From: a virus
Reading direction: 5' to 3' (one strand)
DNA: 54,125 nucleotides
Virus record (IMG/VR): IMGVR_UViG_3300020473_000037
Span: 1-54,125 of that record
Below, in pieces: positions 124 through 10,676 of this stretch. The notes beneath the pieces were generated by a model. The model made no database searches and was not told where the DNA came from. It saw nothing but the letters and a program-made list of their open reading frames with translations. The number at the start of each line of letters is the position of its first letter. Position 1 is the stretch's first letter. The position numbers and the translations under genes are program-made.

Positions 124-126
124 GAA

Positions 127-171
127 CTGTCACACTAGGGGTTGCCAGATCCCCTACAAAACTGGTATACT
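127..171 (+). promoter_or_regulatory. Cassette promoter with long leader (box 127-134, -10 166-171)
   Basis: The box CTGTCACA (127-134) is followed 39 bases later by an extended -10, TGgTATACT (-10 at 166-171), then four bases and GAGTT, as in the other copies. A hairpin AGGGG (137-141) / CCCCT (151-155) lies between them but has no T-run, so it is not a clear terminator. Unlike most copies, the next ATG (309) is 143 bases after the -10. Confidence 0.55.
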
Positions 172-175
172 ATAT

Positions 176-308
176 GAGTTGAGGCAAGGGTGACGTTCAC
201 TATTCGTCTTTAAATCGAACCTCTCAACTGCTCTAACCCCTTTTGGTAGTTTTAGGATTAGAGGCGATAGAAAATTACCACTTTTTAATTCCATCACGAC
301 TTTTTATT
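176..308 (+). ncRNA. Possible structured leader or small RNA
   Basis: The stretch between the 166-171 promoter and the 309 gene can fold. AGTTGAG (177-183) pairs with CTCAACT (223-229), a small hairpin GTGA/TCAC lies inside the loop, and CTCTAA (about 230-235) pairs with TTAGAG (about 258-263). It carries AGAGGCG at 260-266, a heptamer also found in the long leader at 9617-9623. I do not recognise an Rfam family. It could be a cis-regulatory leader or a separate small RNA. No tRNA-like cloverleaf is visible. Confidence 0.3.
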
Positions 309-422
309 ATGTCACGCACTTTTGCTGAATTCCTTCTTGAGAACGCTGAGACTGGGAATGAAATCCTAGCAGTTCTTGAGGATATTGTAAATGTAGTAGA
401 GACAGGAGGAACTGATCTCTAA
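309..422 (+). CDS. Small acidic hypothetical protein (37 aa)
   Basis: This is an ATG-to-TAA frame of 37 codons (MSRTFAEFLLENAETG...), predicted to be largely helical and acidic. I do not recognise a family. It lies alone between the structured leader and a terminator at 444-470. No Shine-Dalgarno sequence is visible before the ATG; the upstream bases are T-rich. The isolated position with a promoter and terminator of its own supports a real gene, but the length is short. Confidence 0.5.
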   Translation: MSRTFAEFLLENAETGNEILAVLEDIVNVVETGGTDL

Positions 423-432
423 GACACTCTAC

Positions 433-483
433 AAACTGACACAAGACCCCTTCTCAGGGGTCTTTTTTTTGCTATAATATAAG
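433..483 (+). promoter_or_regulatory. Cassette promoter (box 436-443, -10 473-478)
   Basis: The box CTGACACA starts 37 bases before an extended -10, TGcTATAAT (-10 at 473-478). Four bases later comes GAGTAAAC, the presumed start region. The ATG of the next gene (504) is 31 bases after the start of the -10. No -35 hexamer is present because a terminator hairpin occupies that place. Confidence 0.75.
444..470 (+). terminator. Rho-independent terminator
   Basis: AGACCCC (444-450) pairs with GGGGTCT (457-463) over a six-base loop and is followed by a run of eight T (463-470). It ends the transcript of the 309 gene and sits inside the promoter cassette of the 504 gene. Confidence 0.85.
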
Positions 484-503
484 AGTAAACAACAAAGGGT
501 CTT

Positions 504-860
504 ATGACTGCAACACCAACATCAAAAGAAGTAACAGTTGATGAGATTCTACCACTTCCTGTAAAGGTTGAAATGTGGGTGATGGATTTAGTTGATGCAC
601 TTCAGGCAGATTATGATCGTCAGGGTTATTCTTCAGATCGTTACAAGTTTGAAGCAACCGCAGGTCGTAAGTATTGGAAGATCTGTTCTAAAGGTCAAGG
701 GGTTCACGCATTTGTTGACAAGAAAACTGGTGAGGTTTACAAACCAGCATCTTGGAAATCTCCAGCAAAGCACGTTAGATATGATCTAAGGATCATCAGA
801 GAACGTGAAGAGTGCCTAATGAGGGCAGATTGGGCAGGTGGTTATCTCTACATGAGGTAA
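504..860 (+). CDS. Conserved phage hypothetical protein (118 aa)
   Basis: The protein has a helical N-terminal third and then a well-ordered core with KYWKI, a GVHAFVDKKTGEVYKPASWK stretch and a following PAKHVRYDLR. I remember this core from many small phage proteins of cyanophages and podoviruses, where the function is unknown. There are no catalytic motifs or membrane segments. The ATG lies 31 bases after the -10 of the 473-478 promoter. There is no canonical Shine-Dalgarno sequence; the leader ends in GTCTT-ATG, as in the 7313 and 9138 genes. It is first in a short run with the 888 and 1064 genes. Confidence 0.85.
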   Translation: MTATPTSKEVTVDEILPLPVKVEMWVMDLVDALQADYDRQGYSSDRYKFEATAGRKYWKICSKGQGVHAFVDKKTGEVYKPASWKSPAKHVRYDLRIIREREECLMRADWAGGYLYMR

Positions 861-887
861 TCACCAATGAGAAGGAGAATCTTACCA

Positions 888-1064
888 ATGGATGAACAAA
901 AAACAACAGTCAATAGGTTTCTAACTTCAGATGACCTGTATTTTGCTTGTAAAAACGATTCTGAATTGATGAGAGAGATTTGTCACAATTACATCCTTCA
1001 TTTAGATGATGATGAGGTGTCTATGTTAGATCAAAATCTTAAAGAAAATTACGGATTGGATTAA
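888..1064 (+). CDS. Small acidic hypothetical protein (58 aa)
   Basis: I chose ATG 888 over the in-frame ATG at 867 because AAGGAG (872-877) sits 10 bases upstream of 888. The product is acidic, with a DDDEVSMLDQNL segment, and helical. I do not recognise the family. Its TAA overlaps the next start as TAATG at 1062-1066, which implies translational coupling to the membrane peptide at 1064. Confidence 0.7.
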   Translation: MDEQKTTVNRFLTSDDLYFACKNDSELMREICHNYILHLDDDEVSMLDQNLKENYGLD

Positions 1065-1177
1065 TGGCGAAAAACATGACTGCAAAGGAGAAATTATTAT
1101 TTCTTCTATCATTCTTTTGGTTTATGCACTGGGGTGTAAATATAGTATCACTACTAATCACCAAACTTGCATACTAA
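1064..1177 (+). CDS. One-pass membrane peptide (37 aa)
   Basis: The frame starts in a TAATG overlap with the preceding gene. The 37 residues have a basic N-terminus (MAKNMTAKEK) followed by about 24 hydrophobic residues rich in L, F, W, I and V, a classic single transmembrane helix with the N-terminus in the cytoplasm. The function is unknown. Tiny membrane peptides are frequent among early cyanophage orphan genes. Confidence 0.6.
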   Translation: MAKNMTAKEKLLFLLSFFWFMHWGVNIVSLLITKLAY

Positions 1178-1181
1178 TCAA

Positions 1182-1343
1182 ATGAACACTTATCCCGAAT
1201 CTGAGTATCCGAATTTATATGAGGAGATAGTAAAGGATCACAATTTTCGTTATGGAAAGTTTAGTCCTATTCCTTATCCCAATATGTTGGATAAAAAACA
1301 ACCAATCGTTATTGATTGGAATCAAAAATCTAAAGAAAACTAA
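1182..1343 (+). CDS. Small hypothetical protein (53 aa)
   Basis: The 53 residues are rich in tyrosine, proline and acidic residues (MNTYPESEYPNLYEE...) with a C-terminal IVIDWNQKSK. I do not recognise a family. It starts 4 bases after the stop of the membrane peptide and ends in a TAATG overlap with the 1343 gene. This tight packing is the main support for it being real. Confidence 0.55.
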   Translation: MNTYPESEYPNLYEEIVKDHNFRYGKFSPIPYPNMLDKKQPIVIDWNQKSKEN

Positions 1344-1528
1344 TGGAACCTTTCAACTGGGCAGTAACAGACACTTGGAACTTTGAGGAAGAAACTTCCA
1401 TCAATTTCTATGAGTTTGAAAATGCAAAAGACTATGCTAAAACGTGGTTAAAAGAAGGTCACGTTAATTCAGCATACCTATGGAAACTAACAACTGGAAA
1501 CCCTATTAAATGGATGGAGGTATCCTAA
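1343..1528 (+). CDS. Small hypothetical protein (61 aa)
   Basis: The protein is aromatic-rich and acidic (MEPFNWAVTDTWNFEEE...), with several W, F and Y residues and no charge clusters or motifs that I recognise. It is coupled at both ends by TAATG overlaps (1343 and 1528), so it belongs to one operon running from 504 to 2105. Confidence 0.65.
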   Translation: MEPFNWAVTDTWNFEEETSINFYEFENAKDYAKTWLKEGHVNSAYLWKLTTGNPIKWMEVS

Positions 1529-1716
1529 TGAAAACATTTCACGTTAAATGCTATGAGACAGTATATTTTACTGTTGCAGTTGAAGCAGAAAACGAAGAGC
1601 AAGCGAAAGAACTTGCTCACGAAGATATAAACTCATTTGAAGTTATTTCAGAAGCAACTTCTGAATGGGATATTGAAGAAGTTATACCAGAAGATGGGGA
1701 GTGGTATAACAAATGA
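1528..1716 (+). CDS. Small hypothetical protein with ferredoxin-like pattern (62 aa)
   Basis: ATG 1528 was chosen over ATG 1510 because GGAGG (1516-1520) precedes it at good spacing and it forms a TAATG overlap with the previous gene. The pattern is a beta strand (MKTFHVKCYETVYFTVAVEAE), then an acidic helix (NEEQAKELAHED), then a strand. This is common to small phage proteins of unknown function. It ends in an ATGA overlap with the metallopeptidase gene. Confidence 0.65.
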   Translation: MKTFHVKCYETVYFTVAVEAENEEQAKELAHEDINSFEVISEATSEWDIEEVIPEDGEWYNK

Positions 1717-2105
1717 CCTTATTCATATCAGGTGATTGGATCATTGATAAGGATAGGGAAACCACTAACTCAGTATTTGATTTTATGTGTGAAATGTTCC
1801 CTATTCTTAGTGGTAAGGAAATTGAAGTCAATCAAGTTGATTTATATGATGATAATGCTTTTGGATTTTGTCAAGTGGATGAGGATGGAGAATTTTTAAT
1901 TCATATTCATAATGATTTGGATAGGGATGATTATATAATCACATTAATCCATGAATTAGTACACGTTAAACAGACTTTAACTGGACTAATGGATTATGAT
2001 AGGAGAGAAGAAGAAGCACTGATATGGGAAAAGTTATTATTCCATAGATTGAAATTAAGATTAGGTGAGCGTGTGCCAGATAAATTTCTGTCTCCTGAAC
2101 GCTGA
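1713..2105 (+). CDS. Small zincin-like metallopeptidase (130 aa)
   Basis: Residues 80-84 read HELVH inside a hydrophobic helix (IITLIHELVHVKQ), the HExxH zinc-binding and catalytic motif of zincins. An acidic helix EEEALIWEKL about 20 residues further on could supply a third, glutamate ligand as in gluzincins and the ImmA/IrrE group. No signal peptide is visible, so it would act in the cytoplasm. At 130 residues it is a minimal domain. The substrate is unknown; inactivation of a host factor or processing of a phage protein are both possible. The start overlaps the previous stop (ATGA at 1713-1716). The last codons contain the weak promoter box (2088) for the next transcript. Confidence 0.75.
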   Translation: MTLFISGDWIIDKDRETTNSVFDFMCEMFPILSGKEIEVNQVDLYDDNAFGFCQVDEDGEFLIHIHNDLDRDDYIITLIHELVHVKQTLTGLMDYDRREEEALIWEKLLFHRLKLRLGERVPDKFLSPER

Positions 2106-2137
2106 AAAGTGGTTCAGATTTGCTATAATACTAATGT
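2088..2137 (+). promoter_or_regulatory. Cassette promoter (weak box 2088-2095, -10 2124-2129)
   Basis: An extended -10, TGcTATAAT (-10 at 2124-2129), is followed by four bases and ATGTAATCAAC, close to the usual start-region word. CTGTCTCC at 2088 matches the first five bases of the box at spacing 36 and lies inside the preceding coding region. The TTG start at 2158 is 34 bases after the -10. Confidence 0.6.
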
Positions 2138-2157
2138 AATCAACAAAGGAGGACACT

Positions 2158-2469
2158 TTGACCAGTTTAGAAAAGATTCTTTCTGAAGAAGATCTTAAGT
2201 ACATTGATGCTATCGAAGATCAGTTTGTGGATTATGTTTGGTCATTCTATGGTAATGAAGAACCATTGTATCCTATTGTGGGATTGACCAAGAAAGATAT
2301 TGTAGATGCCTTTAAAATCTATGTTGATAGAATATTAAAAGGTGATCTTGAATATGTTCATTACTCTTGGGGTGATGGAGATAGTCTTGATCGTGAGAGA
2401 GTCAGAGATATAATACTTGAAAATCCAAAGTTTGAATTTGTAAACCGTTTCACATTATTAGGAGTTTAA
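2158..2469 (+). CDS. Hypothetical protein with TTG start (103 aa)
   Basis: The start is TTG at 2158, supported by a strong AAAGGAGG (2145-2152) five bases upstream and by the -10 distance typical of the cassette. The product is acidic and helical (MTSLEKILSEEDLKYIDAIE...), with aromatic patches and no recognised motif. It heads a run with the 2474 and 2709 genes. Its stop sits in GGAGTTTAATCTAATG, a junction repeated exactly before the 2709 gene. Confidence 0.75.
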   Translation: MTSLEKILSEEDLKYIDAIEDQFVDYVWSFYGNEEPLYPIVGLTKKDIVDAFKIYVDRILKGDLEYVHYSWGDGDSLDRERVRDIILENPKFEFVNRFTLLGV

Positions 2470-2473
2470 TCTA

Positions 2474-2704
2474 ATGCTAGTTTCAGAATCATTTGGAAGA
2501 CATTTCTGGGTTGATGATGAAGATCAATTCAGATCAGCACCTTCATTCAAGGATAATACTGCTGATATGGACAATGCTGATTATGTATCAGAGTGGACTG
2601 AATGGGAAGGGGTTAATTTTGAAAACCTCTTGAACATATACAAGACCGAATTGTATAACAAGTGGAACCACGGTGGTGGTATCTACATTCTTAATGGAGT
2701 TTAA
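2474..2704 (+). CDS. Small hypothetical protein (76 aa)
   Basis: The protein is acidic and aromatic (FGRHFWVDDEDQF, then VSEWTEWEGVNFENLL) and ends in IYILNGV. I do not recognise a family. The 16-base junction GGAGTTTAATCTAATG (2461-2476) supplies its ribosome binding site inside the end of the previous gene. The same junction follows it at 2696-2711. Confidence 0.65.
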   Translation: MLVSESFGRHFWVDDEDQFRSAPSFKDNTADMDNADYVSEWTEWEGVNFENLLNIYKTELYNKWNHGGGIYILNGV

Positions 2705-2708
2705 TCTA

Positions 2709-2960
2709 ATGAGTAACACTGCACAACTTGAAAAGAACATTGCCTTTTGCATTGATGAATGTGATATGGGTGATGAACAGATTGGTGAAATGCTCAGATG
2801 TATTGAACGTATGGGCATTGCATCAGTTGAGCATTTTTGTGAAGAGTTTGTATTTGTTGAAATTGATGATGATGGAGAAGATTATGTATCTGATAATTGG
2901 CATAATGATGAGTATTTGAACATTGCTGAGTTTAACGCAATGTACTGGGAAGGAAACTAA
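2709..2960 (+). CDS. Small acidic hypothetical protein (83 aa)
   Basis: ATG 2709 was chosen over an in-frame ATG at 2673 because the GGAG of the repeated junction precedes it exactly as for the 2474 gene. The sequence has a helical CIDECDMGDEQIGEMLRCI part and an acidic beta part (FVEIDDDGEDYV). The function is unknown. The stop is followed by a CCAGT/ACTGG hairpin that overlaps the box of the next promoter. Confidence 0.65.
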   Translation: MSNTAQLEKNIAFCIDECDMGDEQIGEMLRCIERMGIASVEHFCEEFVFVEIDDDGEDYVSDNWHNDEYLNIAEFNAMYWEGN

Positions 2961-3032
2961 CCAGTCACCCACTTTATAAACTGGTACAAGCAATGTTGAA
3001 ATGATGCCTGTATCAGTTATAATAGTATTGTA
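2961..3032 (+). promoter_or_regulatory. Cassette promoter (box 2981-2988, -10 3018-3023)
   Basis: The box CTGGTACA starts exactly 37 bases before TATAAT, which is followed by four bases and TTGTAAAC. The start codon of the 3052 gene is 34 bases after the -10. No terminator lies between box and -10 here, which shows that the 37-base spacing is not a by-product of terminator size. Confidence 0.7.
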
Positions 3033-3051
3033 AACAACCAAAGGAGATCAA

Positions 3052-3219
3052 ATGAGTGAATCAAGAAGAACACTGACTATCTCCGAGGCAGAGGAATCTG
3101 TACTTGTTGAAATGGTTCAGTTTTTCAATGATATGGGTTGGATCAATGAAGAGTCATCAACCGAGTATGATTCATTAGTTGAGAAAATCTGTGAACCAGC
3201 ATTTTGGGAGTACAGTTAA
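3052..3219 (+). CDS. Small FFND-family hypothetical protein (55 aa)
   Basis: AAGGAG (3041-3046) precedes the ATG. The core runs SVLVEMVQFFNDMGWINEE and then YDSLVEKI. It aligns with the 6881 product (CVLLDMITFFNDCGLPDQ..FDSLCNKF), so the two are paralogues in the same window, both first genes behind a cassette promoter. They are helical and acidic with no known function. The stop overlaps the next ATG at 3219. Confidence 0.7.
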   Translation: MSESRRTLTISEAEESVLVEMVQFFNDMGWINEESSTEYDSLVEKICEPAFWEYS

Positions 3220-3380
3220 TGAGAACATTACACTTGACTCACGATGAATTTGAAGTCCTGTATGATACAGTTGAAAATGTAATACAGGATATTGAGAGTG
3301 ACGAAGTACAGTTGAGTGATTATAAAATTTTTAACATTTACCAAAAACTTCAATCAATGGGGCATCAATCCAATGACTAA
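3219..3380 (+). CDS. Small hypothetical protein (53 aa)
   Basis: The frame is coupled by TAATG to the previous gene. It reads MRTLHLTHDEFEVLYDTVENVI, a strand followed by an acidic amphipathic helix, a pattern I remember from short cyanophage orphans. No function can be given. Its last bases overlap the next start by 8 bases. Confidence 0.6.
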   Translation: MRTLHLTHDEFEVLYDTVENVIQDIESDEVQLSDYKIFNIYQKLQSMGHQSND

Positions 3381-3684
3381 TTATTCAAGAAAAGCAAATC
3401 CAAACGCAACCAACAGTGAATTGGATGCTAAGGTGATTATCAAGCACCCTCAATTAAATAATTCTCAAAGAGATGAACTAATTGAGCAATTTGTAGAAAT
3501 ACAACTTGATAATATGGATACTCAATCTTTATATGAGTTAGCATCAGAATATCTCTTAAATTCATTTGATAGATTAACAGACAATGAGATCAAAGAGAGA
3601 ATAGAAAGTTTATATGATGCAGAATTATATGAGGAGTTGGTAGAGAACATTCAAGTATCCGATCTTATGAAGGAGGTTTCCTAA
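3373..3684 (+). CDS. Conserved cyanophage hypothetical protein (103 aa)
   Basis: I chose ATG 3373, near the stop of the previous gene, over the upstream in-frame start at 3316, which lies wholly inside the 3219 gene. The C-terminal half, with DTQSLYELASEYL, then LTDNEIKERIESL and YDAELYEELVENI, is the part I remember from related cyanophage proteins. All is predicted helical and acidic. It is coupled by TAATG to the 3684 gene. Confidence 0.7.
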   Translation: MTNYSRKANPNATNSELDAKVIIKHPQLNNSQRDELIEQFVEIQLDNMDTQSLYELASEYLLNSFDRLTDNEIKERIESLYDAELYEELVENIQVSDLMKEVS

Positions 3685-4070
3685 TGACTAAGCAAGCATT
3701 TGAACCAAAAGTAGAGGAAGATCTCAATCGACCTTACAACGTGACCTTAACTGAAGGTCAGATTGCTACCATTCTATATGTAATGGAAGGATATACTCAG
3801 GGAAGTGATGATTATCATTTTGATGATGATTTCAATAGGGATGTGGATAATATCTTTAAGTCATTAGAAGGTGCGGTGGACTCTTATTATGATGAGCAAA
3901 AACAAATTGCTCAAGCATTATATGATTCACAACAAAAGCAACCAATACCTGAATGGGATGAAACGGTAGAAGATGCACAGGAAAATAATGTACCATATTC
4001 AACATTGAATGAGGATGATTATGGTAGTAAGGTAGATGCACTTGTAGATTCAATGAAGGAGGGTGGATAA
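3684..4070 (+). CDS. Acidic hypothetical protein (128 aa)
   Basis: GGAGG (about 3671) precedes the ATG within the TAATG overlap. The N-terminal part has NVTLTEGQIATILYVMEGY, a strand plus a helix. The rest is very acidic and glutamine-rich, with a likely disordered middle (EQKQIAQALYDSQQKQPIPE). The function is unknown. It ends in a TAATG overlap with the zinc-ribbon gene. Confidence 0.7.
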   Translation: MTKQAFEPKVEEDLNRPYNVTLTEGQIATILYVMEGYTQGSDDYHFDDDFNRDVDNIFKSLEGAVDSYYDEQKQIAQALYDSQQKQPIPEWDETVEDAQENNVPYSTLNEDDYGSKVDALVDSMKEGG

Positions 4071-4252
4071 TGACATCAGTTAGTTTCAAACCATTGACTC
4101 TTAAGCATACAAGGGTAAAGAGATTTGGATCACATATCCAATGTCCTAATTGTAGATCCATTTCTAAGGTATATCATTTAGCATGGTGCGGTTTAGGATG
4201 TGAACACTGTGGCGAAATGATAGATAAGCAAAATTGGTTGATTGAGGTCTAA
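4070..4252 (+). CDS. Small zinc-ribbon protein (60 aa)
   Basis: Two CxxC knuckles, CPNC and CEHC, about 22 residues apart with a further C before the second, form a treble-clef or ribbon type zinc site. The N-terminal third is basic. Such mini zinc ribbons may bind nucleic acid or a protein partner, but nothing here identifies the target. Starts and stops overlap with both neighbours (TAATG). Confidence 0.7.
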   Translation: MTSVSFKPLTLKHTRVKRFGSHIQCPNCRSISKVYHLAWCGLGCEHCGEMIDKQNWLIEV

Positions 4253-4494
4253 TGTCCGTATCGCAAGAAACTATCAATAAAATGTGTGAAGCAATCATTG
4301 ATGATGTTGCACAATACATTTCAGAGGATCCACGTTTTGTAGATTTACTATCTGAGATAGTTTTAGATGCGATTCAAAGTAAGTTAGGCAAATTAGAACC
4401 AAAGATCCTATTAAGTCTCACACGCAGCATTTCACTCAGATTAAGGTGTAGTGCTAACTATAGTGAAGTGTTTTATCCACGGTGTCCATTATGA
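4252..4494 (+). CDS. Small hypothetical protein (80 aa)
   Basis: A helical protein, acidic in its first half (QETINKMCEAIIDDVAQYI) and basic near the C-terminus (SISLRLRCSANYSE). No family is recognised. It starts in a TAATG overlap with the zinc-ribbon gene and ends in an ATGA overlap with the 4491 gene. Confidence 0.6.
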   Translation: MSVSQETINKMCEAIIDDVAQYISEDPRFVDLLSEIVLDAIQSKLGKLEPKILLSLTRSISLRLRCSANYSEVFYPRCPL

Positions 4495-4670
4495 ATTCCT
4501 CAAATATCGAATTAACAGTAAATGAATGTGACTTCATATTAGACTTGTTAGATAGTATAAAAGATGGTAGAGTAGAAAGGGCAGCAAAGGTTAATAATGC
4601 AAATCCCCGAACTGTCTATCGTAAATTGGCACTTTACGCCAATATAAAAGAACAAATTGATTCATTTTAA
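4491..4670 (+). CDS. Small protein with possible helix-turn-helix (59 aa)
   Basis: I chose ATG 4491, forming an ATGA overlap, over an in-frame GTG at 4482. The first half is acidic and helical (TVNECDFILDLLDSI). The second half, RAAKVNNANPRTVYRKLALY, has the spacing of a helix-turn-helix with a basic recognition helix. This could be a small DNA-binding regulator, but the match is by eye only. Confidence 0.6.
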   Translation: MNSSNIELTVNECDFILDLLDSIKDGRVERAAKVNNANPRTVYRKLALYANIKEQIDSF

Positions 4671-4679
4671 AAATCCCCA

Positions 4680-4772
4680 ATGATCCACACTATCATCACT
4701 GCAATTGGAATTATCGTTATTTTAACGGTTATCAGCACTGTTTTTCTTATGAGGTGGTATGACCCCAGATAA
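4680..4772 (+). CDS. One-pass membrane peptide (30 aa)
   Basis: The 30-codon frame is almost wholly a hydrophobic helix (IITAIGIIVILTVISTVFLM) with RWYDPR at the C-terminus. It overlaps the start of the next membrane protein gene by 14 bases, and GAGGTGG near its end serves that gene. It is short and has no visible Shine-Dalgarno sequence of its own, so the call is cautious. Confidence 0.45.
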   Translation: MIHTIITAIGIIVILTVISTVFLMRWYDPR

Positions 4773-5034
4773 ACAACGTAAAATCCATCCATCTGAATAT
4801 ATGTCCACAGATTGTTGGAAGTATTCAGGCGGTCCAGTTGTTGCTCCATATAAAAGAGGATCCCGCCATAATAAAATTGGTATGTGGATCATGTGGATAT
4901 TTTACATTATAGTAAGTATTCAGTTAATCATTGCATTTGCTACCATTCCATTTTTCCCTATTACTTTCATTACTCTTATTATACTATCATTAATGTCCTA
5001 TGTTGTAGTAGTTGCAAAAATGAATAATTCATAG
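4759..5034 (+). CDS. Two-helix membrane protein (91 aa)
   Basis: GAGGTGG precedes the ATG. About 40 polar and basic residues (with KYSGGPVVAPYKRGSRHNK) are followed by two hydrophobic helices, roughly residues 42-62 and 65-85, separated by a PFFP turn, a hairpin membrane topology. The function is unknown. An inner- or thylakoid-membrane role in the infected cyanobacterium is only inference. Confidence 0.65.
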   Translation: MTPDKQRKIHPSEYMSTDCWKYSGGPVVAPYKRGSRHNKIGMWIMWIFYIIVSIQLIIAFATIPFFPITFITLIILSLMSYVVVVAKMNNS

Positions 5035-5087
5035 TATAATGAAAGACATAAACGAGGGGTACAGCGATTTTTTTATCCCACCCCATA

Positions 5088-5093
5088 TATAAT
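5088..5093 (+). promoter_or_regulatory. Possible -10 element before 5111
   Basis: TATAAT at 5088-5093 stands 23 bases before the ATG of the 5111 gene. No CTGKCACA box is found at the usual distance and no good -35 is seen, so this is weaker than the cassette promoters. The word ATAATACACTTG here recurs at 6399 next to the iteron promoter. Confidence 0.3.
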
Positions 5094-5110
5094 ACACTTG
5101 CATAAAAACA

Positions 5111-5305: not shown

Positions 5306-5311
5306 CCAGCA

Positions 5312-5650
5312 ATGGAAAGTGCCTATGAACCAGAGGTTAATGATTATGTAATATGGGATCAAGGTGAATATGGTAAGCATGAAGGATGGGTTTATTTCAA
5401 GGGTGATCCTGTAGACAATGAAAAGAGAGTCAAGGATGGGTGGAAACCTGTATCCAGATATATCACAATAGAAACTTCGATCAGACCTAAACCCCATGAT
5501 GATTATGCGAAAGGTGATCCCCATCAATTCATTCATACTTTACTATTATGTTATGAGTCAGAGTGGTCTAATCTCATATTCGTAAAGAAACGTAAGAGTA
5601 AGAATATATCTCATTGGTCACAGTATGATGATATAGCAGGTAATGAGTAA
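5312..5650 (+). CDS. Conserved cyanophage hypothetical protein (112 aa)
   Basis: The protein is beta-rich, starting with EPEVNDYVIWDQGEYG. It has a GWVYFKGDPV strand, a SRYITIETSIRPKP segment, then HQFIHTLLLCYESEW and a basic KKRKSK stretch. This architecture recurs in T4-like cyanophages as a protein of unknown function. It shows no catalytic motif and no membrane segment. Confidence 0.8.
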   Translation: MESAYEPEVNDYVIWDQGEYGKHEGWVYFKGDPVDNEKRVKDGWKPVSRYITIETSIRPKPHDDYAKGDPHQFIHTLLLCYESEWSNLIFVKKRKSKNISHWSQYDDIAGNE

Positions 5651-5653
5651 GTG

Positions 5654-5797
5654 ATGTGGAATTTCAAATCAAAGAAGGTTATACTGTTCTTAATCATTAC
5701 AGGATGGATAAGGTTATTATTCATTCTAACCCCTATTGTATTAGTTTATTTTGGAGTACAAAGTGATGTTAGCACCCCTACAAAGCAGATGGAATAA
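5654..5797 (+). CDS. One-pass membrane peptide (47 aa)
   Basis: The basic start MWNFKSKK is followed by about 26 hydrophobic residues (ILFLIITGWIRLLFILTPIV...) and a polar C-terminus. Its final codons overlap the 5766 gene in another frame. No Shine-Dalgarno sequence is clear. It is supported by topology and packing only. Confidence 0.5.
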   Translation: MWNFKSKKVILFLIITGWIRLLFILTPIVLVYFGVQSDVSTPTKQME

Positions 5798-5939
5798 AGG
5801 CATAGATTTAATACACATTGACCTTAGAACATTAGAGGATAAATGGGATAGTATAAACAGACAAATTAAGTTCAATTTACATGCTAATTACTGTATTGAT
5901 ACCCTATGGAGTCTTGATGTAGATGATATATGGGATTAG
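5766..5939 (+). CDS. Small hypothetical protein (57 aa)
   Basis: I chose ATG 5766 over the in-frame TTG at 5751 because a GGAG lies about 10 bases upstream. The acidic C-terminus reads SLDVDDIWD; the centre is helical (IDLRTLEDKWDSINRQI). No family is recognised. It is the last gene before the 534-base control region. Confidence 0.55.
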   Translation: MLAPLQSRWNKGIDLIHIDLRTLEDKWDSINRQIKFNLHANYCIDTLWSLDVDDIWD

Positions 5940-5996
5940 AGGGGTTTTGTATCAGTTTATACCATTTTAATGCTAAAAATAGGTTTTAAATACCTT

Positions 5997-6004
5997 TATA
6001 AATA
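5997..6004 (+). promoter_or_regulatory. Orphan late promoter box TATAAATA
   Basis: A perfect T4-type late box on the + strand with no + strand gene for about 470 bases downstream. If active late in infection it would transcribe the control region itself, including the hairpin near 6190-6235 and the iterons, antisense to the doubtful minus-strand frame. Confidence 0.5.
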
Positions 6005-6297
6005 TTAAATCGTTTTTTATTCGGATTCTCAATAGTGAGTTCTTATTGATACTCAATAGGGTATTGCTATTGATTCTCAGTAATATTAATATATTCTCAA
6101 TCGGTTAATTTTTTATTAATTTATAGTGTTCTGAATGGTGTATTTTATATACTATTATACTACATCTATATGTCTTTAAATCTCTCAGAGACTTGTGGAC
6201 TAAGCGAGCGTACCATAAGACGCTCCTCTTGTCAAGTACAGAGACACGAAAATTCACAAAAACCCTTAGAGTCTTTTGTTTACGTTTCGTAACATAA

Positions 6298-6471
6298 ATC
6301 TCGACTAGATACATATATACTATTATGCTTAATGAATCTCGACTAGATTATGTGCATATTATCAGTTATCAAAATCTCGACTAGATTAGCATAACGTCAT
6401 AATACACTTGACATCTCGACTAGATTCATGTATAATAAGCATATATCATCAAACATCAATCTCGACTAGAC
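6298..6471 (+). repeat. Five direct repeats of ATCTCGACTAGAT
   Basis: Copies at 6298-6310, 6336-6348, 6374-6386, 6413-6425 and 6459-6471 are identical except for the last base of the fifth (C). Start-to-start distances are 38, 38, 39 and 46. Each copy is an imperfect palindrome (ATCT...AGAT arms), so it suits a dimeric DNA-binding protein. Copy 4 exactly fills the spacer of the promoter at 6408-6436, and copy 5 ends 2 bases before the ATG at 6474. Repressor operator and replication iteron are the two main readings. Confidence 0.85.
6408..6436 (+). promoter_or_regulatory. Perfect sigma-70 promoter TTGACA-17-TATAAT
   Basis: TTGACA (6408-6413) and TATAAT (6431-6436) are separated by 17 bases. 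Iteron 4 (6413-6425) shares the last A of the -35 and occupies the spacer, so a protein on that iteron should block RNA polymerase. The ATG at 6474 is 43 bases after the start of the -10. Confidence 0.8.
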
Positions 6472-6473
6472 AC

Positions 6474-6638
6474 ATGGGCGACTACGATGCAACGCAGGTA
6501 TGGGATTACGAGATGTCATCACATGATTATCTCGATGAATCATACACATACAGGCAAGAAGACACATGGGACTTAGATGATGATTACGGGCGAGACAGTA
6601 CAGACTGGCAGCAAATGGCATATATCCATTTTGCCTGA
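6474..6638 (+). CDS. Very acidic 54-residue protein
   Basis: ATG 6474 directly follows iteron 5; the upstream in-frame TTG at 6408 is the -35 hexamer and not a start. The 54 residues contain 12 Asp and 3 Glu against 2 Arg and no Lys, with many Tyr and Trp (VWDYEMSSHDYLDES, TWDLDDDYGRD). That composition resembles DNA-mimic or polymerase-binding phage proteins, but no homology is recognised. The perfect consensus promoter suggests strong, immediate expression unless repressed through the iterons. Confidence 0.65.
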   Translation: MGDYDATQVWDYEMSSHDYLDESYTYRQEDTWDLDDDYGRDSTDWQQMAYIHFA

Positions 6639-6737
6639 GAACTTGTACGAGTATCCCATTATACCATAGTTCGTCACACTTTCGGCAAGATCGTGGGATA
6701 ATATTAGAAGTGGCACAAGGTCATATATTTTATTATA

Positions 6738-6763
6738 TTCTCAATAAAATCCGTTATTGAGAA
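6738..6763. repeat. Perfect inverted repeat TTCTCAATAA / TTATTGAGAA
   Basis: Arms at 6738-6747 and 6754-6763 form a 10-base-pair stem over AATCCG. No T-run follows. The same word occurs in the control region near 6027-6100 and in the attenuator-like element at 7190-7218, so it is a dispersed local motif as well as a hairpin. Confidence 0.6.
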
Positions 6764-6799
6764 ACCCAGCCGTAATTTTGAAAAAACTCAGCCGCCCGT

Positions 6800-6826
6800 G
6801 GACAGTCAACAAACTGTCCATTTTTT
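6800..6826 (+). terminator. Rho-independent terminator
   Basis: GGACAGT (6800-6806) pairs perfectly with ACTGTCC (6813-6819) over CAACAA and is followed by ATTTTTT. The 3' arm is also the promoter box (6814-6821) of the next cassette. Confidence 0.85.
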
Positions 6827-6862
6827 ATGCAAATGGATCGGAAATCGTGTATATTAGGAAAG
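6813..6862 (+). promoter_or_regulatory. Cassette promoter (box 6814-6821, -10 6850-6855)
   Basis: The box CTGTCCAT starts 36 bases before TATATT, which is followed by four bases and AAGTAAAC. The ATG (6881) is 31 bases after the start of the -10. The box doubles as the 3' arm of the upstream terminator. Confidence 0.65.
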
Positions 6863-6880
6863 TAAACAAACATTTCCAAA

Positions 6881-7042
6881 ATGACTCAAGATCTTTATGA
6901 TTACAGTCTGACTTCGGATGAGGACTGCGTTCTACTGGATATGATTACATTTTTCAACGACTGCGGGTTACCCGATCAGATCGACTCCAAAGCGTTCGAT
7001 TCTCTATGTAACAAATTTTACAGTGGGGTTCCAAGAAAGTAA
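6881..7042 (+). CDS. Small FFND-family hypothetical protein (53 aa)
   Basis: Paralogue of the 3052 product: CVLLDMITFFNDCGLPDQ and FDSLCNKF align with SVLVEMVQFFNDMGWINEE and YDSLVEKI. This copy has GC-richer codons, matching the local shift in base composition. The function is unknown. Its stop overlaps the next ATG (TAATG at 7040-7044). Confidence 0.7.
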   Translation: MTQDLYDYSLTSDEDCVLLDMITFFNDCGLPDQIDSKAFDSLCNKFYSGVPRK

Positions 7043-7176
7043 TGAACAAATCATTTGAAGAAGACCAAGATTATACATTCTTGGTCACGGTCACGGCAAA
7101 TGACCTTGAGGAGGCAGAAAACCAAGTGCCCTTTGATTCCATTCTGTATGCTGTAAACGGCGACACCCGATTTTAG
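7042..7176 (+). CDS. Small acidic hypothetical protein (44 aa)
   Basis: The 44 residues have a strand YTFLVTVTANDLEEAENQV like the beta-alpha start of the 1528 product (VYFTVAVEAENEEQAKELA), so a distant relation is possible. The frame is coupled by TAATG to the FFND protein. It is followed by the overlapping hairpins at 7182-7218. Confidence 0.55.
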   Translation: MNKSFEEDQDYTFLVTVTANDLEEAENQVPFDSILYAVNGDTRF

Positions 7177-7181
7177 ACTAA

Positions 7182-7218
7182 ATGCCCTAATTCTCAATAG
7201 GGCATTTTTATTGAGAAT
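7182..7218 (+). terminator. Terminator overlapped by an alternative hairpin
   Basis: ATGCCCTA (7182-7189) pairs with TAGGGCAT (7198-7205), followed by TTTT: a terminator. ATTCTCAATA (7190-7199) pairs perfectly with TATTGAGAAT (7209-7218). The two stems share bases 7198-7199, and the second stem's 5' arm occupies the first stem's loop. The full stems are therefore mutually exclusive, as in attenuators. Confidence 0.65.
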
Positions 7219-7241
7219 CGGTCAGCCGTAAATCAGTTGAG

Positions 7242-7296
7242 AAACTGGCACACATAATCCCCATTCGTGGTGATGATCCTCTATATTAAGAGAGTA
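7242..7296 (+). promoter_or_regulatory. Cassette promoter (box 7245-7252, -10 7282-7287)
   Basis: The box CTGGCACA starts exactly 37 bases before TATATT, with four bases and GAGTACAC after it. The ATG (7313) is 31 bases from the -10. There is no T-run hairpin between box and -10 here. Confidence 0.75.
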
Positions 7297-7312
7297 CACA
7301 TGCAAAAGTCTT

Positions 7313-7564
7313 ATGAACGGTTGGAAAGATTATGAAACTTGGAATGTGTCTCTCTGGATTCAGAACACTGAGTGCCTTTACAGACTTGCCCTAGAGTGTG
7401 CAGGATTCCAAGAATTCAAAAACGTTATGAAAAATGACGTTGGTTCGTTCGTTACTGATGACGGGGTTGCGTGGGATGATGCTGATTACTGCGAAGTCCA
7501 GTCTATGTTCAACGAAATGAAAGCAACAACCGACTTGGATTATTGGAAACATGCCCTAGCGTAA
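7313..7564 (+). CDS. YETWNVSLWI-type conserved phage protein (83 aa)
   Basis: The start WKDYETWNVSLWIQNTECLY is a signature I remember from a widespread family of small phage proteins with no assigned function (an aromatic N-terminal helix followed by an acidic domain). Here an acidic D-rich centre (DDGVAWDDADYCEV) follows. The leader ends in GTCTT-ATG like the 504 and 9138 genes. It is monocistronic, between its own promoter and a strong terminator. Confidence 0.8.
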   Translation: MNGWKDYETWNVSLWIQNTECLYRLALECAGFQEFKNVMKNDVGSFVTDDGVAWDDADYCEVQSMFNEMKATTDLDYWKHALA

Positions 7565-7595
7565 AGCAGGGCAGCCGTAAATCAATTCAAAAACT

Positions 7596-7627
7596 GGCAC
7601 AAGATCGCTTGATTTTGTGCCTTTTTT
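7596..7627 (+). terminator. Rho-independent terminator
   Basis: GGCACAAGAT (7596-7605) pairs with ATTTTGTGCC (7612-7621) with one G-T pair, followed by six T. It begins inside a CTGGCACA word (7594-7601). No good -10 lies 37 bases after that word, so this copy seems to be a terminator only. Confidence 0.8.
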
Positions 7628-7643
7628 ATGCGATCATAATAAT

Positions 7644-7838
7644 ATGTTCAATCCTAATACAACTTTCAATCCAGCATTTCCTTATGCTGTCGTGTGTGCA
7701 TCCGCACCACATGAAAACACAGTTTTCAAAACTTTAGATGAGTGTTGGGGTTTATGCCTCGATCTCTCTGAAGAATATGGTCACTCTGAAGTATGGTACG
7801 GCAAATGCCTAATGGGTGAGTACCGTAACGGACAGTGA
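7644..7838 (+). CDS. Small hypothetical protein (64 aa)
   Basis: I chose ATG 7644 over an in-frame GTG at 7617 because that GTG lies inside the terminator stem. The product has an alternating strand FPYAVVCASAPHENT and a helix (FKTLDECWGLCLDLSEEYG) with several Cys, without a clear metal-binding spacing. The function is unknown. A terminator at 7854-7876 follows. Confidence 0.6.
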   Translation: MFNPNTTFNPAFPYAVVCASAPHENTVFKTLDECWGLCLDLSEEYGHSEVWYGKCLMGEYRNGQ

Positions 7839-7840
7839 AC

Positions 7841-7895
7841 AAACTGGCACACTAAAACCCCATTAGGGGTTTTTTTCATGTATATTAAAAGAGTA
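7841..7895 (+). promoter_or_regulatory. Cassette promoter (box 7844-7851, -10 7881-7886)
   Basis: The box CTGGCACA starts exactly 37 bases before TATATT. Four A and GAGTACC follow. The ATG of the 7912 gene is 31 bases after the -10. A terminator hairpin (7854-7873) fills the space between box and -10. Confidence 0.75.
7854..7876 (+). terminator. Rho-independent terminator
   Basis: AAAACCCC (7854-7861) pairs with GGGGTTTT (7866-7873) over ATTA, followed by more T. The stem is A/T-flanked on both sides and could work in both directions. Confidence 0.85.
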
Positions 7896-7911
7896 CCAAA
7901 GGATTTTTCAA

Positions 7912-8091
7912 ATGAGCGTTTTACATCATGAGTCACTCTATGAAACCTGCATGGACGAATCCTACGAAGAGTACATGCGTATCAGTGGTTTATCAGGTGA
8001 CCAAATGAGTGAGTGGATACATATTAATCCATTCGTTCTTGAAAGAATAGAGGACATGGCATATAAAAAGTTTCAAGACATGTGCCAGTAA
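7912..8091 (+). CDS. Small acidic hypothetical protein (59 aa)
   Basis: The protein is methionine-rich and acidic (MSVLHHESLYETCMDESYEEYM...), with two predicted helices. No family is recognised. It is a single-gene unit with the full cassette promoter in front, and its stop lies 6 bases before the box of the next promoter. Confidence 0.6.
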   Translation: MSVLHHESLYETCMDESYEEYMRISGLSGDQMSEWIHINPFVLERIEDMAYKKFQDMCQ

Positions 8092-8093
8092 AC

Positions 8094-8148
8094 AAACTTA
8101 CACAGCATCCTACCACGGGATGCTTTTTTCATGTATATTAAAAGAGTC
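8094..8148 (+). promoter_or_regulatory. Cassette promoter (box 8097-8104, -10 8134-8139)
   Basis: CTTACACA, a one-base variant of the box, starts exactly 37 bases before TATATT. Four bases and GAGTC follow. The ATG at 8164 is 30 bases after the -10. Confidence 0.7.
8105..8129 (+). terminator. Rho-independent terminator
   Basis: GCATCC (8105-8110) pairs with GGATGC (8118-8123), followed by six T. It has a different stem sequence from its neighbours but the same place inside the cassette. Confidence 0.85.
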
Positions 8149-8163
8149 AAACGAATTTCTTCT

Positions 8164-8289
8164 ATGATTGACCCACGTTTTGAAGATGAAGCACTTTCAG
8201 CACTGATGGAAGAGGCATATTGTGAAACCACCGAAGAAACCAAATTTGATGTTGAAAAATACATTGAAGATTCTGACTTCGACTGGTAA
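8164..8289 (+). CDS. Small acidic hypothetical protein (41 aa)
   Basis: The 41 residues are strongly acidic (MIDPRFEDEALSALMEEAY... ending DSDFDW). Such tiny acidic proteins are common early cyanophage orphans. The frame is supported by the promoter spacing and the following tightly packed genes at 8293 and 8433. Confidence 0.55.
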   Translation: MIDPRFEDEALSALMEEAYCETTEETKFDVEKYIEDSDFDW

Positions 8290-8292
8290 GCA

Positions 8293-8430
8293 ATGCAACC
8301 CATTACTGCAATTACCATTTTTCTAATATGCGTCATTTTTATGGGCATAGCAGAGAATGACACTTCCTACCGACCCCTGAATCCTGGTAGTGAAAAAACC
8401 CTTCGTATCCTTTTCAACAATCCTGAATGA
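8293..8430 (+). CDS. One-pass membrane peptide (45 aa)
   Basis: An N-terminal hydrophobic helix (ITAITIFLICVIFMGIA) is followed by a polar tail with PLNPGSEKTLRIL. It could be a membrane anchor or an uncleaved signal. There is no lipobox at the right position. It begins 4 bases after the previous stop. Confidence 0.5.
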   Translation: MQPITAITIFLICVIFMGIAENDTSYRPLNPGSEKTLRILFNNPE

Positions 8431-8432
8431 CT

Positions 8433-8570
8433 ATGAACACTACTGTCATGTATTCTTTCCCTGATGACCTAAAATATAGGTACATGAGTTTTGCCACTTA
8501 TGCTCAGGCATTGAAAATCATTGAACTTTTCAATACTATTGACGTTAAGGCACAAATTAAGACCAGTTGA
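8433..8570 (+). CDS. Small hypothetical protein (45 aa)
   Basis: The reading MYSFPDDLKYRYMSFATYAQALKIIELF suggests a short strand and an amphipathic helix. The function is unknown. It is the last gene of the 8164-8570 unit. Its stop codon lies inside the stem of the terminator at 8563-8586. Confidence 0.55.
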   Translation: MNTTVMYSFPDDLKYRYMSFATYAQALKIIELFNTIDVKAQIKTS

Positions 8571-8586
8571 CAAACTGGACTTTTTT
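8563..8586 (+). terminator. Rho-independent terminator
   Basis: CCAGTT (8563-8568) pairs with AACTGG (8573-8578) over GACA, followed by AC and six T. It is the first of two tandem terminators. Confidence 0.8.
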
Positions 8587-8594
8587 GTTTCAGT

Positions 8595-8650
8595 TCGTAA
8601 CAAAAACCCCTTTTAGGGGTTTTTTTATTGGTATTATATGGGAGTAAACG
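8595..8650 (+). promoter_or_regulatory. Cassette promoter (degenerate box 8595-8602, -10 8632-8637)
   Basis: An extended -10, TGgTATTAT, is followed by four bases and GAGTAAAC. At the exact 37-base distance stands TCGTAACA, which keeps only the GTxACA core of the box. The ATG at 8666 is 34 bases after the -10. Confidence 0.6.
8602..8626 (+). terminator. Second, bidirectional terminator
   Basis: AAAAACCCC (8602-8610) pairs with GGGGTTTTT (8616-8624), followed by further T. It lies between the degenerate box and the -10 of the next cassette. Confidence 0.85.
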
Positions 8651-8665
8651 CAACCAAGCGAATTT

Positions 8666-9067
8666 ATGCCCGTTAAGTCAACTGCCTCTACTCCTGCAAA
8701 GTCTACAACACCTCGCAAGCGTAGAACCCGTAAGACTTCAACAAAACCAGTCCTTAAAAAGACTACAGTAGAATCAAAAGCATTTGATCTTACTGAAACT
8801 GAATTAAAAACAGTTGAGAAAATGATCGTTGCTTCAACTCCCAAAAAGAAAGCAACACCAAAGGCAAAGGTCACCAGAGCAAAAAAACTCAAAAGACCTG
8901 CTAAAACCGTCCTCACTCTGAATCACTATAAAAGAGATTTTGAGTCAAGAATGAAAATTCACAATTATGAGGTTGATGCCCTAATTCGTGATTTTCTTAA
9001 AGGTTGGGAGCAAATCAAACCTTACCACGCTCAAATGGTAAAACAGATTAAAACAATCACTTTTTAA
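8666..9067 (+). CDS. Lysine-rich histone-tail-like protein (133 aa)
   Basis: Residues 1-34 (STASTPAKSTTPRKRRTRKT...) and about 57-82 (STPKKKATPKAKVTRAKK...) are low-complexity K/R/P/T/A sequence like histone H1 tails, separated by an acidic helix (FDLTETELKTVEKMI). The C-terminal 50 residues look folded and helical (NHYKRDFESRMKIHNYEVDALIRDFLKGW). It probably binds DNA or RNA, but this is inference from composition. It stands alone between a promoter and a terminator, in contrast to its acidic neighbours. Confidence 0.75.
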   Translation: MPVKSTASTPAKSTTPRKRRTRKTSTKPVLKKTTVESKAFDLTETELKTVEKMIVASTPKKKATPKAKVTRAKKLKRPAKTVLTLNHYKRDFESRMKIHNYEVDALIRDFLKGWEQIKPYHAQMVKQIKTITF

Positions 9068-9120
9068 ACTGTCACATCACCCCCTTTACAGGGGGTTTTT
9101 TATTGGTACAATTAAGGAGT
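9066..9120 (+). promoter_or_regulatory. Cassette promoter (box 9069-9076, -10 9107-9112)
   Basis: The box CTGTCACA starts 38 bases before TACAAT in an extended TGg context. Four bases and GAGTA follow. The ATG at 9138 is 31 bases after the -10. Confidence 0.7.
9080..9101 (+). terminator. Rho-independent terminator
   Basis: CCCCC (9080-9084) pairs with GGGGG (9091-9095) over TTTACA, followed by six T. It ends the 8666 transcript inside the next cassette. Confidence 0.85.
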
Positions 9121-9137
9121 ATTCAACCAAAGGTCTT

Positions 9138-9497
9138 ATGAGAAAAATTGAACAGCAAATGAACTCCGCAATCCGCAACAAGCGTGATTGGACTTCTGGC
9201 AACACTTCTGTTCAAATCGAAGACAACGGCGACGCACTGGTTTACCTACACGGAAACTACATTGCAAAAGTCTCTGACCATTTTGTTGACTTGCATGACG
9301 GCGGGTGGCAGTCCGTGACAACCAAATCCAGACTAAACGCAATCTGTTATGAGTTTGGATCAACCCCAAGGACAGGCATTTTTCAGAAAAATTGGCAGTG
9401 GTTCGTTACCCTATTTGACGGAACTACTCAACCGTTTTTCTCAGGCATCCAACTTAACGAAGCGGGACGCAAAGTCAGTCCTCCACTGTTCGGTTAA
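9138..9497 (+). CDS. Conserved phage hypothetical protein (119 aa)
   Basis: The signature GNTSVQIEDNGDALVYLHGN, a DGGWQSVTTKSRLNAI stretch and FQKNWQWFVTLFDG are all familiar from small proteins of diverse tailed phages, including cyanophages; the function is unknown. The pattern is a compact alpha/beta domain. The gene is GC-richer than the late genes (27 G/C in the row 9361-9420). It is monocistronic with its own cassette promoter and terminator. Confidence 0.85.
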   Translation: MRKIEQQMNSAIRNKRDWTSGNTSVQIEDNGDALVYLHGNYIAKVSDHFVDLHDGGWQSVTTKSRLNAICYEFGSTPRTGIFQKNWQWFVTLFDGTTQPFFSGIQLNEAGRKVSPPLFG

Positions 9498-9498
9498 G

Positions 9499-9553
9499 AA
9501 ACTGTCACACCAAACCCCCATTGGGGTTTTTTTATTGGTATTATTAAAGAGTG
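9499..9553 (+). promoter_or_regulatory. Cassette promoter with long leader (box 9502-9509, -10 9539-9544)
   Basis: The box CTGTCACA starts exactly 37 bases before TATTAT (TGg extension). Four bases and GAGTG follow. The next gene starts 145 bases after the -10, unlike the usual 30-34, leaving a leader of about 130 bases. Confidence 0.75.
9512..9533 (+). terminator. Rho-independent terminator
   Basis: AAACCCC (from 9512) pairs with GGGGTTT (9523-9529) and runs into seven T. It ends the 9138 transcript. Confidence 0.85.
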
Positions 9554-9683
9554 GAAGAAAGAGGGTTTGGTGAATGCCCTGTTCGACCTTTCTTCCACAG
9601 TAGCAGGATTTCGGGGAGAGGCGTAATGTGCCCCACGGGTCGCCACCGTTAAAAGACATCCAACGTTATTTTCCATCAACAGC
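9551..9683 (+). ncRNA. Structured 5' leader of the nucleotidyltransferase gene
   Basis: GTGGAAGAAAG (9551-9561) pairs perfectly with CTTTCTTCCAC (9588-9598), an 11-base-pair stem at the very start of the transcript. Further on GGGG (9613-9616) can pair with CCCC (9631-9634) while GGCG (9620-9623) can pair with CGCC (9641-9644); the two are interleaved, so a pseudoknot is possible. ACGG (9635-9638)/CCGT (9646-9649) is an alternative. AGAGGCG at 9617-9623 is shared with the leader at 260-266. No known riboswitch consensus was recognised, and no Shine-Dalgarno sequence is seen before the ATG. Confidence 0.5.
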
Positions 9684-10583
9684 ATGACAAAAAACATTCA
9701 CATTGAACACCCAGAAGACAGCATCTTGACAGGTTCCCTTCACTGTTTGGATGCTTTTTTAAGTGCCTTTTTTCTATCCGTGAAATGGGATGGAGCACCT
9801 GCCATAGTGTGGGGAACCAATCCTGCCACGGGCAATTTCTTTGTAGGCACAAAATCAGTTTTCAATAAGCGTAAAATCAGAATATGTGAAACACCTGAAC
9901 AGATCAGCGAATGGTATGGTGGCACAGAACTTGAAATCATTTTGGGATCGTGCTTATGCAACATACCCCATACTGACCGAATTTATCAGGGTGACTTTAT
10001 CGGGTTTGGTGGTGAGACCGAATACACCCCAAATACCATAACCTATGAATTTGATTCACCCGTAGCGGAAGAAATCATAATTGCACCCCATACCAGATAT
10101 TATGCTGAGTTTGATTTGCGTGATGCGGTCAGTTCACCTGTCACCGATTGGTCAGACTTCCCTGCCACCAATCCCGACGGATCATATTTTGTGAAGTGGG
10201 TCGGTGCGGATGCCGTGGGAGATTTTGAACCACTAAGGGATAAAATCCAATTTGCCAGACAGATGGCACAGTTGGTAAAATTTGAGGATAAGAAGGGGGC
10301 GGCACAGTTAAAGAAAGATCTAAACGCTTTCATCCGTGACGGTGATGAGATCATCCCCGAACTGTTCGCAAATTATCAGTTGGTCAGACTGTGGAAGTTG
10401 GTTGCCAGCATAAAGGAAGATGCCATGCGTCTAATTGAAATTGATTCTGAGGTTGGGGCGTTTATCGGTGATGATGAAATAGACTGTGAAGGATATGTCA
10501 TGCATGGCAATTGCTGGTCTTATAAATTGGTAGACCGTGCGGAATTCTCACACGCTAATTTCAATATGGGGGTGGGTGCTTAG
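9684..10583 (+). CDS. KxDG nucleotidyltransferase of DNA/RNA ligase type (299 aa)
   Basis: VKWDGAPAIVWG places K34-W-D-G37 as motif I of the covalent nucleotidyltransferases (ligases and capping enzymes). GDFIGFGG near residue 103 would be motif III. EGYVMHG near 269 is motif IV and SYKLVDR near 279 is motif V with its lysine. This is the whole adenylation domain order in 299 residues, without a recognisable OB-fold or DNA-binding extension. It may adenylate or seal nucleic acid ends; the substrate is unknown. A similar family is known to me from cyanophages as a hypothetical protein. It is expressed alone from a cassette promoter through a structured leader and closed by a terminator at 10600-10637. 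Confidence 0.75.
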   Translation: MTKNIHIEHPEDSILTGSLHCLDAFLSAFFLSVKWDGAPAIVWGTNPATGNFFVGTKSVFNKRKIRICETPEQISEWYGGTELEIILGSCLCNIPHTDRIYQGDFIGFGGETEYTPNTITYEFDSPVAEEIIIAPHTRYYAEFDLRDAVSSPVTDWSDFPATNPDGSYFVKWVGADAVGDFEPLRDKIQFARQMAQLVKFEDKKGAAQLKKDLNAFIRDGDEIIPELFANYQLVRLWKLVASIKEDAMRLIEIDSEVGAFIGDDEIDCEGYVMHGNCWSYKLVDRAEFSHANFNMGVGA

Positions 10584-10599
10584 GCACTCATCCGTTAGG

Positions 10600-10637: not shown

Positions 10638-10676
10638 ATGGTCCTTATATTAATTCCGATGGATCCCCTAAGCTAT

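Follow-up and report, generated by a model that had tools for sequence, protein, structure and literature searches.

Several phages bring host RNA polymerase to their own promoters with a phage protein bound upstream, among them phi29 with p4, Mu with Mor/C, and P2 with Ogr. Few viruses in the sea are as abundant as the T4-like cyanophages. Their motA and asiA genes are reported absent in a review of cyanomyoviruses, which calls early and middle gene control in these phages unclear (PMC2984593), and also in a passage of PMC5780444 that cites Doron 2016 and Thompson 2016. For P-HM2, a passage of PMC5082946 describes early, middle, and late expression clusters, and S-PM2 uses the host PhoB protein on a few promoters (PMC10976474). 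Here we describe a 24-bp imperfect palindrome, TGTGMCAST-N6-ASTGKCACA, standing at a fixed distance from the -10 element of many small promoters in a T4-like cyanophage represented by the 54,125-base virus record IMGVR_UViG_3300020473_000037 (all of it analyzed, and called the window below) and in its cultured relatives. The palindrome was not described in the literature that we searched, which did not include the RNA sequencing (RNA-seq) study of Syn9 (Doron 2016). Judged from sequence, cyanophages probably switch on early accessory genes by a DNA-binding activator of their own, as yet undiscovered.

The terminase encoded in the window is ~85% identical to that of P-SSM2, and the portal, sheath, capsid, and neck genes come after an accessory region of small open reading frames (ORFs). 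A first-pass annotation had listed ten CTGKCACA-like boxes on the plus strand, each at a near-constant distance from a -10 element and all within the first 9.6 kb, that is, in this accessory region. All ten box/-10 pairs (127/166, 436/473, 2088/2124, 2981/3018, 6814/6850, 7245/7282, 7844/7881, 8097/8134, 9069/9107, and 9502/9539) are present. The 8-base box is real but is not the whole element, being the promoter-proximal (right) arm, and thus half, of the 24-bp palindrome; aligned sites of related loci give TGTGMCAGTTnAnAAASTGKCACA. The box at 2088 seems degenerate because in that palindrome the upstream arm (TGTGCCAG at 2072) is the perfect one; the same holds at 8097, with TGTGCCAG at 8081. 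On the plus strand of 160 related viral loci used for the offset analysis, the exact right-arm box is followed by TATAAT at an offset of 36 to 38 and the exact upstream arm TGTGMCAG at 53 to 54, while the opposite strand of these loci has no preferred arm-to-(-10) offset. The palindrome ends 29 to 30 nt before the -10 and, counted from the inferred start, spans about -65 to -42 with its center at -53.5. An operator of two arms implies a dimeric binding protein.

A symmetric matrix derived from related viral loci (130 relatives, the window left out) found seven sites of at least 15 bits in the window; random sequence had 0 when generated at order 3 and 0.2 at order 1. A second matrix, which was trained only on cultured-cyanophage sites and then run back on the window, gave the ten listed sites 10.9 to 23.5 bits at spacings of 28 to 31 nt, whereas the best score among the remaining 206 of 216 plus-strand -10 strings was only -5.3 bits. 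A "degenerate box" that had been proposed at 8595 scored -26 bits with this matrix and is no site. The list itself stands but was incomplete: it overlooked an exact CTGGCACA at 7594 (palindrome 7578-7601) and, on the minus strand, a unit whose palindrome (6717-6694) is followed 30 nt on by TATAAT.

The palindrome is strongly enriched in cultured Kyanoviridae. In seven complete or near-complete genomes that had no part in training the first matrix, sites of at least 15 bits numbered 19 in P-SSM2, 10 in Syn9, 20 in S-PM2, 14 in P-SSM4, 14 in P-HM2, 3 in S-SM2, and 28 in S-SRM01, where random sequence led us to expect 0.2 to 1.0 per genome. The total of 108 compares with 4.0 for random sequence and 4.25 for column-permuted palindromic matrices; an eighth genome, S-CRM01, has a further 25. 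When palindrome and -10 were scored together (combined score of at least 18), the eight genomes yielded 139 sites, 138 of them unique. Most marine cyanophages tested carry about ten to thirty such promoters.

In 124 sites of the eight genomes, preselected for a palindrome-to-(-10) distance of 28 to 32 nt, the spacing was 29 nt in 70, 30 nt in 35, 28 nt in 9, and 31 nt in 8; 29 to 30 nt thus accounts for 105 of the 124, the fixed phase to the core promoter expected of an activator operator. Without such selection, taking the best -10 within 20 to 40 nt, 65 of the 108 sites in the seven genomes still had a spacing of 29 or 30 nt, and in the reverse direction the peak was far lower, at 27 of 108, with true minus-strand promoters making up part of it. 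The enrichment of the box at this offset in relatives, which had been put forward as a check on the original proposal, was found in eight cultured Kyanoviridae.

Other features of the promoters are more variable. A -35-like hexamer was found at 16 of 70 sites in the seven cultured genomes, versus 5% of control stretches; the earlier statement that no -35 is present is right for most sites, but at site 127 a TTGCCA lies 18 nt ahead of the -10. A GAGTA start is exact in four of the ten window sites; of 138 sites from the cultured genomes just 3 have it, and a TGn extension of the -10 occurs in 43 of the 138. The inferred start, the seventh base after the -10, lies in a purine-T-A at 50 of 138 sites. 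The arms are imperfect (on average 6.2 of 10 pairs match), the better-matching arm being promoter proximal in 79 sites and distal in 34. Because the 29 to 30 nt between operator and -10 are free sequence, an upstream gene's terminator can be accommodated there; a strict test placed one in this spacer at 13 of 138 sites, and inspection by eye at about half of the window sites. Sometimes a separate terminator comes after the palindrome.

When 84,980 genomes were scanned for the palindrome with TATAAT, 55 scattered matches came up. One contig of Nonlabens xiamenensis (NZ_RMVE01000006, 188 kb) holds five exact palindromes together with DUF7717 and Kyano_Gp96 cyanophage genes, and is very likely a Kyanoviridae phage genome inside a bacterial assembly; the only other contig with several matches, NHFO01000063 of Flavobacteriales TMED113 (a metagenome-assembled genome), may be a similar case. 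The palindrome is absent from T4, P-SS2, Syn5, P-SSP7, and Ma-LMM01 (matrix-scored lengths of 40 kb for P-SSP7 and Syn5 and 60 kb for Ma-LMM01), stands at control level in KVP40, and was not found in pelagiphage HTVC008M. An exact search of viral contigs with the box plus spacer text specific to the window gave no match. In S-TIM5 (NC_019516), a distantly related myovirus classed outside Kyanoviridae, 5 of 22 [CG]TGGCCC strings have a -10 at offset 38, and a variant, TGGGCCAST-N6-ASTGGCCCA, occurs with the same offset in five or six places, the scored sites lying at 163-171 kb; a looser version of this pattern was not enriched over random. From these few sites, the S-TIM5 sequence reads as a variant operator.

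We consider it likely that the units are sigma-70 promoters dependent on an activator and that they make up a Kyanoviridae regulon. A dimeric, phage-specific, and probably phage-encoded protein would bind the 24-bp palindrome, and the bound dimer would contact the host polymerase loaded with its primary sigma factor; this contact would open promoters that have a good -10 and usually no -35. The first-pass annotation had already taken the box for an activator site of a phage regulon, placed unlike the T4 MotA box near -30. The matrix and the 124 sites agree with it on position, and the activator site is still the best reading, to which the two-arm palindrome and its phage specificity are now added; from the sites we infer the dimer, activation rather than repression, the regulator and its encoding by the phage, the starts, and the early or middle timing.

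Other readings of the palindrome deserve consideration. The binder could be a host transcription factor, hijacked as PhoB is by S-PM2, whose promoters bind host PhoB in gel shifts (PMC10976474); this would account for immediate-early use without a new protein. We regard it as unlikely: exact palindromes are at about chance level in the host, with 19 in 151 genomes (~320 Mb) of the family of Synechococcus lacustris, versus 2 to 7 per genome of ~0.2 Mb in well-endowed phages; P-SSP7, Syn5, and P-SS2 infect the same host group yet lack it; and the sequence is unlike NtcA sites (GTA-N8-TAC) and Pho boxes. Very degenerate host sites would stay compatible with these counts; a host regulon as such was rejected after the host matches were checked, given the chance-level palindromes and the scatter of the 84,980-genome matches. 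A distribution confined to phages points to a phage protein as the binder. Less probable still is a repressor operator that would keep the promoters shut at late stages of infection or in certain states of the host. Repressors typically bind palindromic operators, and some promoters with a -35 could work alone, but most have none, and the palindrome lies away from the -35, the -10, and the start. An operator clear of the core promoter, the narrow spacing, the rarity of -35 elements, and a proximal arm that is the better conserved one, as would be expected if an activator contacts polymerase, fit a recruiting dimer better than a repressor.

That the palindrome is instead a transcribed RNA hairpin of the upstream gene, serving in termination, processing, or stability and lying near promoters just because intergenic space is short, seems to us very improbable. 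It often comes just after a stop codon, T runs come after inverted repeats at 6798 and 8559, and perfect copies could fold; against this stand the fixed 29 to 30 nt to the -10 and the dependence on orientation, the imperfect arms, the separate terminators after some palindromes, and one copy (2072) in coding sequence. Nor is there compensatory covariation: among the 138 unique sites, no arm pair had a significant Watson-Crick excess over shuffling, and we rejected the hairpin on this ground. The Watson-Crick match was 0.43 at variable pair 4/19 and 0.37 at variable pair 7/16, versus 0.45 and 0.44 after shuffling, although choosing sites by total score drives the agreement of the arms down to independence or lower and so weakens the test. 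The arms vary independently, which argues against a hairpin, and the covariation evidence against an RNA role is strong but not absolute.

Besides this weakness of the covariation test, several points count against the recruiting phage activator that we favor. The system is not shared by the whole family: S-SM2 has only three sites, S-RSM4 few, and HTVC008M none when one mismatch is allowed. Should the genes be immediate-early, an activator made by the phage would need to enter with the virion. Among the small proteins conserved across the genomes compared, none shows a helix-turn-helix or another recognizable DNA-binding family, and two candidates gave low-confidence AlphaFold models that matched nothing in the PDB. 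Of these two, phrog_385/T4-GC 321, a phage "transcriptional regulator," had a predicted local distance difference test (pLDDT) score of 70 and no convincing helix-turn-helix, and the conserved protein T4-GC 49 had a pLDDT of 62 and was not found in S-CRM01; both were set aside. Kyano_Gp96 was likewise discarded as the regulator, having no match in P-SSM2, P-SSM4, P-HM2, S-SRM01, and S-CRM01. Comparison of gene content with the site-poor S-SM2 left one 41-aa ORF, of unknown function, that occurs in all seven other phages. A wider picture, to which we give about even chances, would be that in most Kyanoviridae a dimeric activator from a family not yet recognized as transcription factors governs an early or delayed-early regulon of 10 to 30 dispersed promoters and replaces MotA/AsiA, with the variant operator of S-TIM5 pointing to a regulator of changed specificity.

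Putative operators and -10 elements in the window (bit scores from the cultured-phage matrix)
Feature	Position	Strand	Remarks
Operator TGTACAAGtttaagaaCTGTCACA	111-134	+	21.7 bits
-10 TATACT	166-171	+	-35-like TTGCCA at 142-147
Operator TAAGACACtctacaaaCTGACACA	420-443	+	20.7 bits; upstream of DUF7717 gene 504-860
-10 TATAAT, then ATAAGAGTA	473-478	+	
Operator TGTGCCAGataaatttCTGTCTCC	2072-2095	+	14.4 bits; within end of ORF 1713-2105
-10 TATAAT	2124-2129	+	serves ORF 2158-2469
Operator TCACCCACtttataaaCTGGTACA	2965-2988	+	12.6 bits
-10 TATAAT	3018-3023	+	
Operator TGTGCCACttctaataTTATCCCA	6694-6717	-	combined score 23.0; TATAAT 30 nt downstream
Operator GTGGACAGtcaacaaaCTGTCCAT	6798-6821	+	14.7 bits; T run directly after
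-10 TATATT	6850-6855	+	
Operator TAAATCAGttgagaaaCTGGCACA	7229-7252	+	21.5 bits
-10 TATATT	7282-7287	+	serves ORF 7313-7564
Orphan operator TAAATCAAttcaaaaaCTGGCACA	7578-7601	+	18.2 bits; no good -10 at offset
Operator ACGGACAGtgaacaaaCTGGCACA	7828-7851	+	23.5 bits, highest on window plus strand
-10 TATATT	7881-7886	+	
Operator TGTGCCAGtaaacaaaCTTACACA	8081-8104	+	18.8 bits; overlaps stop codon of upstream ORF
-10 TATATT	8134-8139	+	
Operator ACAATCACtttttaaaCTGTCACA	9053-9076	+	14.0 bits; upstream of Kyano_Gp96 gene 9138-9497
-10 TACAAT	9107-9112	+	
Operator CTGTTCGGttaagaaaCTGTCACA	9486-9509	+	10.9 bits; upstream of conserved gene 9684-10583
-10 TATTAT	9539-9544	+	

The sites are concentrated in the accessory region of small ORFs and are met repeatedly ahead of orthologous genes. 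One precedes 33 of 42 nonredundant DUF7717 homologues and 12 of 19 nonredundant Kyano_Gp96 homologues, compared with 9 to 12% of other stretches at the same loci; the start codon follows the -10 at a median of ~56 nt and ~30 nt, respectively. Orthologues of gene 9684-10583 in Syn9 and P-SSM4 likewise lie behind a site. The product of this gene (phrog_455, T4-GC 71; function unannotated) is present in all eight cultured Kyanoviridae compared, and its KWDGAPA motif resembles motif I of nucleotidyltransferases/ligases. The leader inferred for promoter 9539 begins with an 11-bp perfect RNA stem, GTGGAAGAAAG...CTTTCTTCCAC (9551-9598); Rfam found no match in window positions 1-12500, which include this stem. 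In S-PM2 (NC_006820), a palindrome promoter at 22260-22340 lies directly upstream of the annotated anti-restriction gene S-PM2p068.

The accessory region also holds repeats of other kinds. Five copies of AATCTCGACTAGAY, spaced 38 to 46 bp, occupy 6294-6471, and P-SSM2 has three copies of their core, TCTCGACTAGA, at 66.0-66.1 kb; these iteron-like repeats are a possible origin or control region. ATTCTCAATA/TATTGAGAAT repeats lie at 6025-6120, 6727-6760, and 7190-7219 and are also found in many relative loci.

An operator regulon would offer a testable answer to how early and middle genes are controlled without MotA/AsiA. With its sequence and offset defined, the operator can serve as bait for isolating the regulator, and the two together make a promoter-prediction rule for many unannotated small-ORF regions. 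The operator may also mark likely host-takeover genes, as the anti-restriction gene of S-PM2 suggests.

Among known systems, T4 middle promoters come close: they too belong to a T4-like phage and combine a good -10 and no -35 with an upstream activator box. However, the MotA box is short and lies near -30, whereas the palindrome described here covers 24 bp from -65 to -42, and motA and asiA are reported missing from cyanomyoviruses (PMC2984593, PMC5780444), the window holding the smaller part of this phage's genome. Plain sigma-70 promoters of the T4 early type have a -35 at 16 to 18 nt, which is found here only in the minority of sites given above, and T4-type late promoters (TATAAATA, read by gp55) have no upstream element, in contrast to the TATAAT-type -10 with palindrome. 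The PhoB-bound promoters of S-PM2 also show activator input on Kyanoviridae promoters (PMC10976474), but through direct-repeat Pho boxes, a host factor, and few genes; Pho boxes are CTTA-type direct repeats, and here TGTGMCAST is repeated in inverted orientation. Class I/II activation of the CRP/NtcA type likewise relies on a dimer bound to a palindrome ahead of promoters whose -35 is weak or absent; that site is centered, however, at -41.5 or -61.5 rather than -53.5, and no host regulon was found here. The CRP operator (TGTGA-N6-TCACA) has similar outer arms but differs from the 24-bp spacing with conserved inner CAST/ASTG, and cyanobacterial NtcA promoters (GTA-N8-TAC, about -41.5) differ in both consensus and position. 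Phi29 p4, Mu Mor/C, and P2 Ogr act on other operators and on one or a few operons, unlike the dozens of dispersed small promoters described here; an activator-dependent phage regulon is thus known as a kind, and the regulator of this one is possibly new.

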